A stretch of DNA of 64,000 nucleotides, from NCBI RefSeq assembly GCF_004345665.1, contig NZ_SLWR01000001.1:930001-994000 (forward strand). Direction: 5' to 3'. Position numbers and translations under genes: made by a program. This DNA comes from Kribbella antiqua. GTDB lineage: Bacteria; Actinomycetota; Actinomycetes; Propionibacteriales; Kribbellaceae. Position 1 is the first letter of the stretch. The number at the start of each line of letters is the position of its first letter. Below the pieces are notes generated by a model that was not told where the DNA came from, did not search any database, and worked only from the letters and a program-made list of their open reading frames with translations. This document shows, one piece after another, positions 53,568 to 58,324 of the stretch.

Positions 53568-54554
53568 ATGCCCATGTACAGCAGCAAGTCGGCGGGGCTC
53601 GCGTTCGCGGTGTTCTCCGCGGTGACGTTCGGTGGTTCCGGGCCGTTCGCGAAGGCGCTGATCGGGGCTGGTTTCTCCCCCGAACAGGCCGCCTGGCTGC
53701 GGATCCTCGGTGCCGCCGCGCTGCTCATTCCGCTCGTACTGATCTTCCGCGGTGCTGCCGGACTGCGTGCCGCGCGGGCGTCCTGGCGGGCGCTGGTGCT
53801 CTACGGGCTGACCGGGATCGCCGGCTGCCAGACGCTCTTCTTCATCGCGGCCAGCCGGCTGCCGGTGGGTGTCGCGTTGATGCTGGAGTTCTCCGGACCG
53901 GTGCTGGTGGTCGTGTGGCTGAAGTTCGGCCAGAAGATCGCCGTACCGCGGTCGGCCGCGATCGGCGTCGGGATCGCGCTCGTCGGTCTCGCGACCGTGG
54001 TGGAGATCTGGTCCGGTCTCAAGCTCGACCTGGTCGGCCTGATCGCGGGTCTCGGCGCGGCCGCGTGCCAGGCGACGTACTTCATCTTGATCGACAAACT
54101 GACCGGTGCCGCGGATCCGCTGGTGATGACCGCTGCCGGGAGCGTGGTCGGCGCGGTGGCGCTGACGTTCATCTCCGCGCCGTGGGGCATCCCCTGGCAC
54201 GCACTTGTCGACACCATCGCGATCGGCGACCGGTCCGCGCCGGGCTGGGTGCTGGCCGGCTGGCTGATTGTCGTCAGTACGGTTGTCGCCTACCTCGCCG
54301 GCGCCGCCGCCGTGCAGCGGCTGTCGGCCGCGGTCGGTGGAGCCGTCGCGTACGTCGAGGTCGTTGCCGCCAGCATCTTCGCCTGGGTCCTCCTGAACGA
54401 GACCCTCCGCACCAACCAGATCATCGGCGGCGCCATCGTCCTCCTCGGCGCCTTCGTAGCCCAGTCGTCAGTCGGCAAAGTCTCTCCATCGGAGATCCCC
54501 GACTCCGACACCTCGAACCCCCGCACCACAGACCTCGACCCCGCCGGCGTCTGA
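53568..54554 (+). CDS. EamA/DMT-family transporter
   Basis: A 328-residue protein with ten membrane helices and two EamA repeats: LAFAVFSAVTFGGSGPFAKALI at the start, LPVGVALMLEFSGPVLVVVWL, and RLSAAVGGAVAYVEVVAASIFAWVLLNETL near the end. A charged 40-residue tail follows. It is related to the first EamA gene in the window (25384-26265) only at family level. Substrates could be amino acids or toxic metabolites. The gene converges with the AlaRS-like gene 41 bases away. The ATG at 53568 is followed by a second in-frame ATG two codons later. Confidence 0.86.
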   Translation: MPMYSSKSAGLAFAVFSAVTFGGSGPFAKALIGAGFSPEQAAWLRILGAAALLIPLVLIFRGAAGLRAARASWRALVLYGLTGIAGCQTLFFIAASRLPVGVALMLEFSGPVLVVVWLKFGQKIAVPRSAAIGVGIALVGLATVVEIWSGLKLDLVGLIAGLGAAACQATYFILIDKLTGAADPLVMTAAGSVVGAVALTFISAPWGIPWHALVDTIAIGDRSAPGWVLAGWLIVVSTVVAYLAGAAAVQRLSAAVGGAVAYVEVVAASIFAWVLLNETLRTNQIIGGAIVLLGAFVAQSSVGKVSPSEIPDSDTSNPRTTDLDPAGV

Positions 54555-54595
54555 GCCCGAACCCCATGCCGCCGGCCGAGGCCGAGGTCGTCGTA

Positions 54596-55747
54596 CTAGA
54601 TGAGGGTGTCGACGAGCTCGCGGGGCAGGCCGTGGGTTTCGTGCAGGTAGGTGTAATCGGTGTCGTCGAGGGTTTTGTGGAAGCGTTCGTGGCTGAGGAC
54701 TTTGCGGCCGCGGTCGAGGAGGTTGCTGAACCGGATCTCCTCGTCGATCAGGATCCGGCGCACCAGCGTGACGAGCTCGCCCTGGTGGAAGTGGTTCAGG
54801 GTGTGCTCGAACAGTTCCATCGGCAGGTCGGACAGCGTGCGGCTGTCGTCGTCGCGCCACAGGATTGTCAGCACTCGGCGGATCAGCCGGCGCAGCACGT
54901 AGCCGCGGCCGGTGTTCGACGGGTGCACGCCGTCGCCGACGATCACGATGCTGGAGCGCAGGTGGTCGATCACGATCCGCTGGGACTGCTCGTCCAGCCG
55001 CCACATCGACGGAATGATCCGCATCCACGGCTCGAACAGCGACGTCTCGTACACCGAGTCCTTGCCCTCGAGCAGCATGGTGAGTCGCTCGAGGCCGAGG
55101 CCGGTGTCGATGTTCTGCTGCTGCAGCGGTTCGAGCGACCCGTCGTCGAGCCGGCGGTAGCGCATCATCACGTGGTTCCACACCTCGACCCAGCGCTTGT
55201 CGGTGCTCGGCGTACCCTCCGGGTCGCCGTCGCCGGTCCAGACGAAGATCTCCGAGTCCGGGCCGCACGGACCGGTCGGGCCGTTCGACCACCAGTTGTC
55301 CTCGGTGGTCAGCTCGATCGGCACGCCCAGCTCCTGCCACGTCCGCAGCGACTCCTGATCCAGCGGCACCTGGTCCCCGCCGCCGTACACGGTCACGTAG
55401 AGCCGCCCGGGATCGATGCCGAAGCCGTCGCGGATCAGCTCGAAGCCCCAGCGCAGTGTCTGGCTGCTGCCGTAGTCGCCGAGCGACCACGAGCCGAGCA
55501 TCTCGAACACGGTCAGGTGGGTCGAATCCCCCACCTCGTCGAGGTCGGTGGTTCGCAGACATCGCTGGATGCCCACGAGCCTGCGGCCCAGCGGATGGGG
55601 TTCTCCTTCCAGGTACGGCGTGAGCGGATGCATGCCGGAGGTCGTGAAGAGCACCGGATCACCGAGCCGCGGGATGAGCGTGGAACCTGTGGTCGGAACG
55701 TGCTCACGGTCGAGGAAGAAGTCGATGAAGGTCCTGCTGATGTTCAT
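54596..55747 (-). CDS. Shortened alanyl-tRNA synthetase-like protein
   Basis: This 383-residue protein matches only the aminoacylation core and the start of the tRNA-recognition region of AlaRS (about 875 residues in full-length enzymes). Class II motifs are intact: LFTTSGMHPLTPYLEG, the QRCLRTTDLDEVG segment, FEMLGSWSLGDY, DNWWSNGPTGPCGPDSEIF, WNHVMMRYRR and NIDTGLGLERLTMLLEG. The editing and C-Ala domains are absent. It could be a second synthetase that is resistant to an inhibitor, an Ala-adenylating enzyme, or a tRNA-dependent modifier. A leader peptide with four terminal alanines and a terminator lie upstream, suggesting control by charged tRNA-Ala. It ends next to the convergent EamA gene. 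Confidence 0.88.
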   Translation of the reverse strand: MNISRTFIDFFLDREHVPTTGSTLIPRLGDPVLFTTSGMHPLTPYLEGEPHPLGRRLVGIQRCLRTTDLDEVGDSTHLTVFEMLGSWSLGDYGSSQTLRWGFELIRDGFGIDPGRLYVTVYGGGDQVPLDQESLRTWQELGVPIELTTEDNWWSNGPTGPCGPDSEIFVWTGDGDPEGTPSTDKRWVEVWNHVMMRYRRLDDGSLEPLQQQNIDTGLGLERLTMLLEGKDSVYETSLFEPWMRIIPSMWRLDEQSQRIVIDHLRSSIVIVGDGVHPSNTGRGYVLRRLIRRVLTILWRDDDSRTLSDLPMELFEHTLNHFHQGELVTLVRRILIDEEIRFSNLLDRGRKVLSHERFHKTLDDTDYTYLHETHGLPRELVDTLI

Positions 55748-55796
55748 GGTTCTGGTCCTGTCTTTCAGATGACCGGAACCAGACCACCGGGATCGG

Positions 55797-55833
55797 AAAC
55801 AACAAAACCGGCGAACCGTTTCCGGTCGCCGGT
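55797..55833 (-). terminator. Intrinsic terminator (attenuator) upstream of the AlaRS-like gene
   Basis: An 11-bp stem with one bulged T carries a GAAA tetraloop (ACCGGCGACCG then GAAA then CGGTTCGCCGGT) and a TTTTGTTGTTT tail. It lies between the leader peptide stop and the start at 55747. A U-tract is unusual for this genome. Alternative pairings can break it: GACCGGAA in the stem matches TTCCGGTC downstream, and an upstream segment in the leader peptide can pair with GGCGACCGG. Confidence 0.75.
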
Positions 55834-55849
55834 GGAGGTTTCGAAGATG

Positions 55850-55915
55850 TCAGGCCGCGGCAGCCGGAGAGCGATGAGCTCGTACGGCTGCGGTAAGTCG
55901 GGACATCTGATGCAT
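55850..55915 (-). CDS. Alanine-rich leader peptide (candidate)
   Basis: A short ATG-to-TGA frame of 21 residues contains seven alanines, the last four consecutive (codons GCT GCC GCG GCC) just before the TGA. It begins about eight bases after a TACGCT -10 candidate and so may be leaderless; a TGGACA lies 19 bases upstream of that -10. The frame ends 16 bases before an intrinsic terminator. This is the arrangement of an attenuator that reads tRNA-Ala charging to control the AlaRS-like gene. Translation is inferred from position and composition only. Confidence 0.6.
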   Translation of the reverse strand: MHQMSRLTAAVRAHRSPAAAA

Positions 55916-55973
55916 GTCGGCCAGCGTACACGAACAGCTACGCCCCCTGTCCAGCCTGTTCCCAGCCAGCCGC

Positions 55974-57092
55974 TCAGACGTCGAGGAGTTCGCGGAGTAC
56001 GGCGCCGGCATGGGACCACGTCCAGTTTTGCTCGACCCAGGCCCGGCCCGCCTCGCCCAGCTCCCGGGCGCGCGCGGGGTTTGTCAGCAATCCGGCGATC
56101 CGAACGCCGACAGCCACCGGGTTGTACGGGTCGACCAGGTAGCCGGTCTCGCCGTGCCGGACCGTGTCCTCAGCTCCACCGGAGTCGCCGACCACAACCG
56201 GCTTGCCCACCGCCGCCGCCTCGAGCGTGACGATCCCGAGTGCCTCCGGCTCGAGCCCGAAGCGCCGTGTCCGGCACGGCATCGCGAAAACGTCGGCCGC
56301 GTCGACGTACGGCGGAATGTCCGCCCACGGCACCGGACCGGTGAACACCACCGACGACCGGACCCCAACCGCGGAAGCCAACCCTTCCAGCCGCTCACGA
56401 TCCGGCCCGCCGCCAACCAGCAGCAGCATCGCCGACGGCACCGCCGCCAGCACGCGAGGCCAAGCACGGATCAGCGTGTCCTGCCCCTTCCGCGGCACCA
56501 GCCGAGACACGCAGGCGACGACCGGAACGCCTTCCAGTCCCAGGCCTTTACGGACCTGTTCTCCCCCACACCCCGGGTGGAAGCGCAGATTGTCGACACC
56601 CGGAGCCAGCCGCCGCATCCGTCGTACGGCGGCCGGCGACAACGCCGGCGCGATCTGCTCCGCGCACCACGACGACACCGTCGTCATCGTGTCAGCCGCG
56701 TCGCCGATCCGCCGCAGCGCCTGCCGGGCACCGGGCACACCCGCCCACCACGTCTCGTGTCCATGCGTCATCGCGACGATCCGCCGCGCCCCCGCGCGCC
56801 GCAACGCCGGCCCCATCAGCCCGAGCGGCGCGGCCGCCCCGAACAGCACCCGATCCGCGTCGTGCTCCCGCATCAGCCGTACGGCGTGCTTCGTCACCCG
56901 CGGCGTCGGCAGCAAGACCGTCGTACGCTCACGAACCACCCGGAACGGCAGCTCGGAGTCGTACGACGTGTCGCCGGGTGACGACGACGTCAGTACGACG
57001 ACATCCGGCAACTCGTCGCACAGCGAACGTACGAACGTCTCGATCCCGCCCTGCCGCGGCGGGAAGTCGTTGGTGACGACGAGAACGGTCAT
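55974..57092 (-). CDS. Glycosyltransferase family 4, PimB-like
   Basis: The 372-residue GT-B enzyme has the N-terminal motif VVTNDFPPRQGGIETFV at residues 4-20, the middle VSRLVPRKGQDTLIRAWPRV, and a C-terminal EPEALGIVTLEAAAVGKPVVVGDSGGAEDTV with the EX7E pair. It resembles actinobacterial alpha-(1-6)-phosphatidylinositol monomannoside mannosyltransferase PimB, using GDP-mannose at the membrane. The ATG at 57092 overlaps the M48 gene's stop by four bases. The stop at 55974 lies within the promoter region of the AlaRS-like gene's leader, and I see no terminator between them. Confidence 0.87.
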   Translation of the reverse strand: MTVLVVTNDFPPRQGGIETFVRSLCDELPDVVVLTSSSPGDTSYDSELPFRVVRERTTVLLPTPRVTKHAVRLMREHDADRVLFGAAAPLGLMGPALRRAGARRIVAMTHGHETWWAGVPGARQALRRIGDAADTMTTVSSWCAEQIAPALSPAAVRRMRRLAPGVDNLRFHPGCGGEQVRKGLGLEGVPVVACVSRLVPRKGQDTLIRAWPRVLAAVPSAMLLLVGGGPDRERLEGLASAVGVRSSVVFTGPVPWADIPPYVDAADVFAMPCRTRRFGLEPEALGIVTLEAAAVGKPVVVGDSGGAEDTVRHGETGYLVDPYNPVAVGVRIAGLLTNPARARELGEAGRAWVEQNWTWSHAGAVLRELLDV

Positions 57093-58324
57093 CGCTGCGC
57101 CAACGGCGGCACCGTCGTCCCATGCCCTGCCGCCCACGCCCGGCCCATCGCTATCCGCTCCGGCGCGGTCGGGTGGCTGGCGAACATCCAGTACCGCCAG
57201 CGCCGCGGGTTCAGGCCGGAGATGTTCGTCACGGCCAGATCGTGCTGCATGGCAACAAAGTCTTGCGGATCGTTCGTCAGCCGGAGCGAGTGGTAGTCGG
57301 CCCGGGCCTCGATCCGCCGGCTGACCAGGTTTTGCACCGGCGACGCCAGCGTCGAACCCAAAGCGATCAGTGCCAGCAGCAACGCGGTCCGGCGCGGATC
57401 CGACATCCGTGCCCCAAGCAACAACCTCAGCAACACCACGCCAAGTGCTGCACCGAGCACACCGATCAGCGTGCCGTGCAGTACGTCGTCCTCAGCCGCA
57501 TGACCGAGTTCGTGCGCGACGACCAGCCGGACCTGCGCGGGCGGCGCATCCTTGAGCAATGTGTCGTAAACGACCAGCCGCCGCGTCGAACCGAAGCCGG
57601 AAACGTATGCATTCAAGGCAGTTGTGCGCTTCGACGCATCCGCCACGAGCACATCCTTGACCGGTACGCCGTCGTTCGCGGCGAGCTTCATGAAATCATT
57701 GCGCTGCGCACCCGCAGGCATCGAGGTGAACGAGTTGAATCGCGGCTCCACCAGCACCGGGTACGCGAACGACACCCCGAGCACGAGCAACGCAGCAGCG
57801 ATTGCCGCCGGCAACCACCACCAGGTCCGCCAGCGTTTCGCCAACCCGATAAGAACAACGGCGATCACCGCGAGCGCAAGGGACATCAGCAACCAGTTGA
57901 CGGCACGGTCGCGAGTCCACAACCCCCAGCCCTGCACCGACAGCCCGTACTTCCGGCTGACCCGCTCCGCCATGATGTCCGTCAGCAGCGTGACGACGCT
58001 GGTCAGCAGCCCGAGACCAGCCACCAGCACCGGTACAGCGACATACCACCGACGGATGCGGATCTCGTCGTACAGACGGCGGCCGAGCGCACTGAGGCCA
58101 ATCACAAGCGGGACCAGCACAGACAACACCCAGGAGGTCGTTGACCACGGCAACAGCTCGTGCCGGAACGCGTTCTGCCGGGCGATCTCCGCGGCCGAGA
58201 AGTCCAGCGCCGCATCAGGCTTGGGCAGATCGATCAGATGCCACGGTGTGGTGGTGACGATGACCACGACCACGGCCGCGGCAAGGACGAGCCCAGTCAG
58301 ACGCGGCGCGACCGCCTCAGACAC
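57089..58324 (-). CDS. M48 (Ste24/HtpX-like) membrane metallopeptidase
   Basis: The 411-residue protein has the zinc motif VVAHELGHAAEDDVLHG near residue 280 and the third ligand Glu in SRRIEARADYHSLRL. It has around six membrane helices, as in CAAX prenyl protease type I and HtpX. It should cleave membrane or lipidated proteins. Translation probably starts at the GTG at 58324 with AGAGG eight bases upstream; a TTG two codons earlier is also possible. It overlaps the preceding peptidase gene by eight bases and the next by four. Confidence 0.88.
   Translation of the reverse strand: MSEAVAPRLTGLVLAAAVVVVIVTTTPWHLIDLPKPDAALDFSAAEIARQNAFRHELLPWSTTSWVLSVLVPLVIGLSALGRRLYDEIRIRRWYVAVPVLVAGLGLLTSVVTLLTDIMAERVSRKYGLSVQGWGLWTRDRAVNWLLMSLALAVIAVVLIGLAKRWRTWWWLPAAIAAALLVLGVSFAYPVLVEPRFNSFTSMPAGAQRNDFMKLAANDGVPVKDVLVADASKRTTALNAYVSGFGSTRRLVVYDTLLKDAPPAQVRLVVAHELGHAAEDDVLHGTLIGVLGAALGVVLLRLLLGARMSDPRRTALLLALIALGSTLASPVQNLVSRRIEARADYHSLRLTNDPQDFVAMQHDLAVTNISGLNPRRWRYWMFASHPTAPERIAMGRAWAAGHGTTVPPLAQR

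Follow-up and report, generated by a model that had tools for sequence, protein, structure and literature searches.

A predicted alanine attenuator before an alanine-free mini alanyl-tRNA synthetase gene in an actinobacterial genome

Vecchione and Sello are said to have described, in 2010, the ribosome-mediated attenuation of an auxiliary tryptophanyl-tRNA synthetase (TrpRS) in Streptomyces, an enzyme that is reportedly full length and gives resistance to indolmycin. That system resembles the locus studied here in that a leader peptide containing cognate codons precedes a second, stress-induced aminoacyl-tRNA synthetase gene, and differs from it in that the amino acid is tryptophan and not alanine; by analogy, it offers a precedent for the switch logic that we propose. 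To our knowledge, no inhibitor is known for the gene reported here, which encodes a short alanyl-tRNA synthetase (mini-AlaRS). The trp, leuS and trpS attenuators of Actinobacteria also combine a leader ORF of cognate codons with competing antiterminator and terminator helices, and the survey that lists them contains no alanine attenuator, the words 'alanine' and 'alanyl' being absent from its text (PMC1262725).

For alanine, the relevant locus is alaL-alaS of S. lividans TK24 (SLIV_01313-SLIV_01315), where alaL was detected by RNA-seq in 2021 and was called previously undescribed (PMC8079986). The available text gives only the peptide and its RNA-seq position and names the gene alaS; the mini-enzyme, a three-helix switch, conservation and alanine depletion are not described in it. 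We found that the 22-aa alaL peptide (MNVIGRNIFATARATSSPVAAA) was identical to the leaders before the short AlaRS genes of two of our loci (L077 and L091), with a homologous position and an Ala-rich make-up in both alaL and the leaders of this study. In the window, too, the short AlaRS gene, which falls in the same clade, directly follows an alaL-like leader. The leader type is already known as alaL, and the statement of the original prediction that no such attenuator had been described for an AlaRS paralogue has to be withdrawn, since the 2021 paper had placed alaL upstream of a gene annotated as alaS; what is new here is a zero-alanine mini-AlaRS behind a predicted alanine attenuator. Unlike in alaL-alaS and its Streptomyces relatives, the hairpin in leaders of the window's genus is followed by a real U-tail, and no WblC box is present in the promoters.

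Regarding the enzyme, Tupanvirus TuAlaRS is a natural AlaRS that, like the family described here, has no editing and C-Ala domains, and Tupanvirus was thought to be alone in having a working mini-AlaRS (PMC10036535). TuAlaRS comprises 461 aa and no longer has the N and D for reading G3:U70 (PMC10036535), whereas the family here is bacterial and Ala-depleted, measures ~383-400 aa and has retained the Asn, with Asp or Glu in most members at the other position. Regarding composition, biosynthetic enzymes that are required when the cell is starved of an amino acid are known to avoid that same amino acid (PMC4209129). That cognate bias is statistical and concerns biosynthetic enzymes, whereas we observed a complete absence in a synthetase of a normally Ala-rich family. 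We found no report in the searchable open literature that joins leader, mini-AlaRS and cognate avoidance, or that notes the Ala-free sequence.

The window is a stretch of 64,000 nucleotides from an actinobacterial genome of 8.1 Mb. On its minus strand we located a leader peptide ORF (MHQMSRLTAAVRAHRSPAAAA; 55915-55850), a terminator hairpin, a U-rich tail and the short AlaRS gene, all at the positions given in the original prediction. The leader ORF has 21 codons plus TGA and reads ATG CAT CAG ATG TCC CGA CTT ACC GCA GCC GTA CGA GCT CAT CGC TCT, followed by CCG GCT GCC GCG GCC TGA. An Ala-rich leader ORF preceded the short AlaRS gene at 171 out of 172 loci (36 same-genus genomes and many Streptomycetaceae), although some of these loci are the same genome fetched twice and the independent observations are fewer than 171. 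The only locus without a leader (L145) lies on a contig that begins 195 nt before the gene. The 171 loci comprised 151 distinct leader sequences of 20-24 codons, with TGA as the stop in all of them, and this conservation excludes an occurrence by chance. The 5' part of the leaders was variable and indels came only in whole codons, a pattern which suggests that the ORF is translated.

The short AlaRS was present in all 36 other genomes of the genus (84-94% identity, and one at 64%), while the other families of the order had only full-length AlaRS (36-45% identity). It was also present in 66 out of 296 Streptomyces genomes, in Kitasatospora and Streptacidiphilus, and in three further families that were found via the leader. 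A covariance model of the leader gave a single real match in its own genome (112 bits), with the next one at 22 bits; control of several genes by this leader was thus rejected, as all other matches of at most ~25 bits are background. Among 395 genomes of the class, the same model gave 12 strong matches, all of them before a mini-AlaRS gene and three in other families, so that leader and gene are linked one to one. At one locus of another family (L213, genome G1048), the mini-AlaRS was nested in the clade of the window's genus, which suggests that leader and gene may have been transferred horizontally together. The 64% protein of the genus (L037, genome G029) is a divergent mini-AlaRS whose gene has another leader (MRTWVRVAAAGAFAPSADQT) and a terminator that is very stable. 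In a related family, genomes carried two full-length AlaRS genes that fall in distinct clades (L226 and L227 of G050).

The leader RNA contains three segments, all on the minus strand, that compete for pairing. Segment 1 (GCAGCCGTACGAGC; 55878..55891) corresponds to leader nt 25-38 (codons 9-13) and pairs with segment 2. Segment 2 (CCGGCTGCC; 55859..55867, nt 49-57) pairs with either segment 1 or segment 3, and segment 3 (GGCGACCGG; 55822..55830, nt 86-94) is both the 3' arm of the antiterminator and the 5' arm of the terminator; the leader stop lies between them at nt 64-66. Helix 1:2 (GCAGCCG..GAGC / GCTC..CGGCTGC; 55891-55860, -17.7 kcal/mol) represents the protector arm; neither this strong helix nor the lack of alanine in the synthetase had been noticed in the original prediction. 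The 2:3 duplex joins 55867-55859 to 55830-55822 with one C.A mismatch and one G.U pair, exactly as had been proposed. The conserved intrinsic terminator hairpin (segments 3:4; 55807..55833, minus strand) consists of the stem ACCGGCGACCG-GAAA-CGGTTCGCCGGT and is directly followed on its 3' side by the U-rich tail TTTGTTGTTT (55797..55806, minus strand). The original prediction had described an 11-bp stem with a GAAA loop, and we obtained 11 pairs with one bulge at ~-19.9 kcal/mol. A simple terminator consensus scan overlooked this hairpin (55833-55807), probably because of the bulge. The leader RNA can thus form the mutually exclusive helices of a classical attenuator, namely 1:2 as protector, 2:3 as antiterminator and 3:4 as terminator. 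An Rfam search of the region returned only chance matches below the gathering scores, and no match to a T-box was obtained within 54400-57200 at E up to 5.

Comparison of the homologous leaders supported these helices. RNAalifold recovered 1:2 and 3:4 de novo from 30 diverse leaders, and 94.7% of the cells of these two helices were paired, versus 23-52% when the partners were slid; helix 2:3 was paired in 95.9%, versus 11-47% in the slid controls. Four pairs of helices 1:2 and 3:4 had changed on both sides, and two pairs of 1:2 showed compensatory changes. One position of segments 1, 2 and 3 changed in concert: the window's genus has G/C/A, the main Streptomyces clade (S1) A/U/A and the third clade (S3) G/C/G. 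The G/C/A state results in the C.A mismatch in the antiterminator of the window's genus. This mismatch is present in every same-genus leader and counts against the attenuator reading. Since most positions never vary, the evidence from covariation comes from a small number of pairs and of independent events. Segment 3 (GGCGACCGG) was invariant in 25 out of 25 distinct same-genus cores and in 39 out of 39 S1 cores, while in S3 it reads GGCGGCCGG and segment 2 compensates for it. The 9-nt 2:3 duplex reached -11.8 kcal/mol in the window's genus, versus -16.3 and -18.2 kcal/mol in the Streptomyces clades. When segment 1 was masked and the RNA ended after segment 3, the window leader folded into 2:3 (-13.0 kcal/mol), as did the leaders of the Streptomyces clades (-16.4 and -20.1 kcal/mol). 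The 12 nt after the hairpin contained 7-9 T in same-genus leaders and a mean of ~3.4 in the Streptomyces clades. In L038, L077, L177 and other Streptomyces leaders, the hairpin was kept without a U-tail and the promoter had gained a WblC box; termination may differ in these hairpins.

We then consider where a ribosome would have to stall. Given the usual ribosome footprint, a ribosome with its A site at codon 9 or 10 would cover segment 1 and free segment 2, and a ribosome at the last four Ala codons or at the stop would cover segment 2 and free segment 3. This geometry points to GCA GCC (Ala9 Ala10; 55886..55891, minus strand), inside segment 1, as the predicted control codons, together with codon 8, which is Ala in 29 out of 36 same-genus leaders and Thr in the window. 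It agrees with the stall site at the earlier Ala codons that was originally predicted. Residue counts by position placed an Ala at -13 in 34 of the 36 same-genus leaders, 109 of 115 S1 leaders and all 19 S3 leaders. In the main Streptomyces clade, one upstream Ala codon is replaced by Thr, so the Ala identity is not strict, which counts against the reading. The terminal GCT GCC GCG GCC run, which had been named first, was ruled out as the sensor: it overlaps segment 2, which a stall there would mask, and it is not conserved, being interrupted by Asp in S3 and often by Val in S1, and absent in G029. The proposed alignment of leaders across homologues thus bore out the terminator and the upstream Ala codons and not the run of four.

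Upstream of the leader, we identified a -10 box (TACGCT; 55923..55928, minus strand) 7 nt before the ATG and, as read from the sequence, a -35-like hexamer (TGGACA; 55948..55953, minus strand) at a spacer of 19 nt. In almost every same-genus or Streptomyces leader, a TANNNT motif began 12-13 nt ahead of the ATG. GGACA was the majority at the -35 stretch of the 36 same-genus leaders, although these nucleotides often also belong to the end of the gene upstream; a sigma-70 consensus scan found no promoter in the region. The -10 spacing predicts a leaderless transcript that starts at the leader ATG and argues, as far as a predicted start can, against a transcription start downstream of 55850. Several leader peptides of S. 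lividans are likewise reported to be encoded by leaderless transcripts (PMC8079986). The upstream gene, which encodes a glycosyltransferase on the same strand, ends ~60 nt before the leader, and this proximity would suit a hairpin that is a mere terminator of that gene, with the leader ORF and the pairings incidental. We find this explanation hardly credible, as the unit is kept beside differing upstream sequences in same-genus and Streptomyces genomes, travels with the mini-AlaRS gene, and has its own -10 box and conserved ORF.

The mini-AlaRS gene (54596..55747, minus strand) was assigned by Pfam, NCBIfam and PDB matches and contains no GCN codon among its 383 codons, while ~46 Ala would be expected. 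In a sample of 158 genes of at least 250 codons, drawn from this genome (the window and a further 400 kb, 464 kb in all), the mean Ala content was 12.0% and the next lowest protein had 6.9%; the binomial chance of zero Ala in 383 residues at 12% is ~6e-22. The resident full-length AlaRS has 26 Ala in the matching region of 408 residues. Among the same-genus orthologues, 25 out of 30 complete proteins had no Ala and none had more than two, and zero Ala was also found in the G029 mini-AlaRS and in a distant protein (G806). Clade S3 proteins had 0-10 Ala, and those of the main Streptomyces clade ~8 (2.2%, versus 13% in a sample from one Streptomyces genome), so that the depletion there is incomplete, which counts against the reading. 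Columns that are Ala in 15-20 out of 20 full-length AlaRS (residues 37, 97, 133, 260 and 292) are here Ser, Thr, Ile or Val. Ser and Thr were not reduced (14.9%, versus 5.9 + 6.6% in the genome sample), and the pattern looks like selection against alanine itself. With zero Ala codons, the gene could be translated without Ala-tRNA, the condition that the leader should sense, and the alanine-free synthetase lends independent support to tRNA-Ala charging as the sensed signal.

We consider it likely that the leader is a ribosome-mediated transcription attenuator that senses tRNA-Ala charging and controls an emergency mini-AlaRS. Transcription would begin at the leader ATG. When Ala-tRNA is plentiful, the ribosome would reach the TGA and cover segment 2, so that 3:4 pairs and transcription stops; if the leader is not translated, 1:2 would pair and termination would follow as well. 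When Ala-tRNA is scarce, the ribosome would stall at Ala codons 9-10 and mask segment 1, the free segment 2 would capture segment 3, and the RNA polymerase would read into the synthetase gene. The mRNA without Ala codons would be translatable during the absence of Ala-tRNA, and the emergency AlaRS would bring charging back while the main enzyme is blocked or falls short. The benefit would be largest when charging, and not the supply of alanine, is limiting, for example after inhibition of, or damage to, the main AlaRS. With somewhat less assurance, we favour the near-total Ala purge and the Ala-codon attenuator as a two-part emergency restart, possibly protecting against an AlaRS inhibitor, in the manner of the attenuated TrpRS and indolmycin. 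The attenuation by tRNA-Ala charging that had been proposed from this stretch has thus gained a conserved leader, a conserved terminator, compensatory antiterminator pairing and a predicted transcription start, and direct sensing of tRNA-Ala by the leader is what we infer from them.

The main rival is that the leader senses translation-blocking antibiotics, with ribosomes halted by phenicol-like drugs on the Ala-rich leader causing read-through, the Ala-free mRNA escaping the same drugs and the gene belonging to the WblC/WhiB7 response, a reading that we consider improbable. It draws on S. coelicolor alaS2 (SCO7600), which depends on WblC and tetracycline (PMC7157823); SCO7600 is probably an orthologue of the mini-AlaRS gene, of the same family, and presumably identical with SLIV_01315. 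Moreover, a WblC box (GAAAWY) was found at -44 to -47 in 40 out of 98 S1 and 15 out of 19 S3 Streptomyces promoters. Ribosome stalling by chloramphenicol and linezolid is strongest when the penultimate residue is Ala, followed by Ser or Thr (PMC8987054), and the leaders consist of 47-57% A+S+T. Against this, GAAAWY, which is expected 3 nt upstream of the -35, was absent in 35 out of 36 same-genus promoters, the single occurrence being off the expected position, and the stall-favouring Ser and Thr are not depleted in the synthetase. In addition, the amino acid that has been purged is exactly the one used by the encoded enzyme family, which would be a coincidence if the leader were a drug sensor. 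In Streptomyces, the promoter may respond to WblC and the leader to Ala-tRNA, so that both inputs are combined.

The mini-AlaRS protein comprises the catalytic domain and the start of the tRNA-recognition domain. The Pfam AlaRS domain was matched from position 2 to 403 of 552, in agreement with the predicted 383-residue AlaRS-like gene without editing and C-Ala domains, and the protein aligned with solved AlaRS catalytic fragments (PDB sequences) up to about E. coli residue 408. Of the catalytic motifs of class II AlaRS, motifs 2 and 3 are retained. Asn278 occupies the position of E. coli N303 and Glu370 that of D400, two residues with roles in reading G3:U70 (PMC10036535); the D400 position is Asp in most of the Streptomyces sequences examined. 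We found that 17 mini proteins grouped in a single clade (100/100 support) apart from full-length AlaRS, that of the resident alaS among them; the idea that the mini-AlaRS gene is a truncated copy of this alaS was thus rejected. The AlphaFold model had modest confidence (pLDDT 69), and its best Foldseek matches were AlaRS fragments. Given this confidence, an end only ~15 residues past the Asp position that reads G3:U70, and the Glu at this position in the window, catalysis is only inferred.

These same features would also suit a different product, in which the attenuator stands and the protein forms alanyl-adenylate or transfers alanine to some other RNA or a carrier, such as tmRNA in ribosome rescue. 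The mini-AlaRS is without the C-Ala domain, the source of most of the tRNA affinity of E. coli AlaRS, and the E. coli fragment N461 binds tRNA poorly (PMC10036535). The genes activated by WblC include smpB and arfB (PMC7157823). However, motifs 2 and 3 and the Asn are kept, the D400 position is mostly Asp in Streptomyces, and the Tupanvirus mini-AlaRS charges tRNA-Ala without C-Ala (PMC10036535). The Ala-free sequence is best explained by a role during the absence of Ala-tRNA, and we regard such an alternative product as unlikely, with an emergency tRNA-Ala charger as the preferred reading.

Restoring tRNA charging is a catch-22, since the rescue enzyme itself needs translation; switch and enzyme together seem to offer a way out, as the leader asks for alanine and the gene needs none. 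With an emergency charger of this kind, cognate avoidance would reach beyond biosynthetic enzymes and occur, in an extreme form, in a synthetase, and bacteria would have a natural mini-AlaRS of fewer than 400 residues. Such an enzyme would also give a function to an alaS paralogue known only as tetracycline- and WblC-dependent, and would hint that soil actinomycetes meet a condition or natural product by which Ala-tRNA is depleted.

Finally, we observed a conserved TTCCGGTC element between the terminator and the gene, both in the window (55765-55785, minus strand) and in related genomes. RNAalifold gave no hairpin for the same-genus leaders, and a second switch acting through this element at the Shine-Dalgarno site was rejected. 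The element is complementary to GACCGGAA in the loop region of the terminator, and it is possible that it represents a further layer of control.
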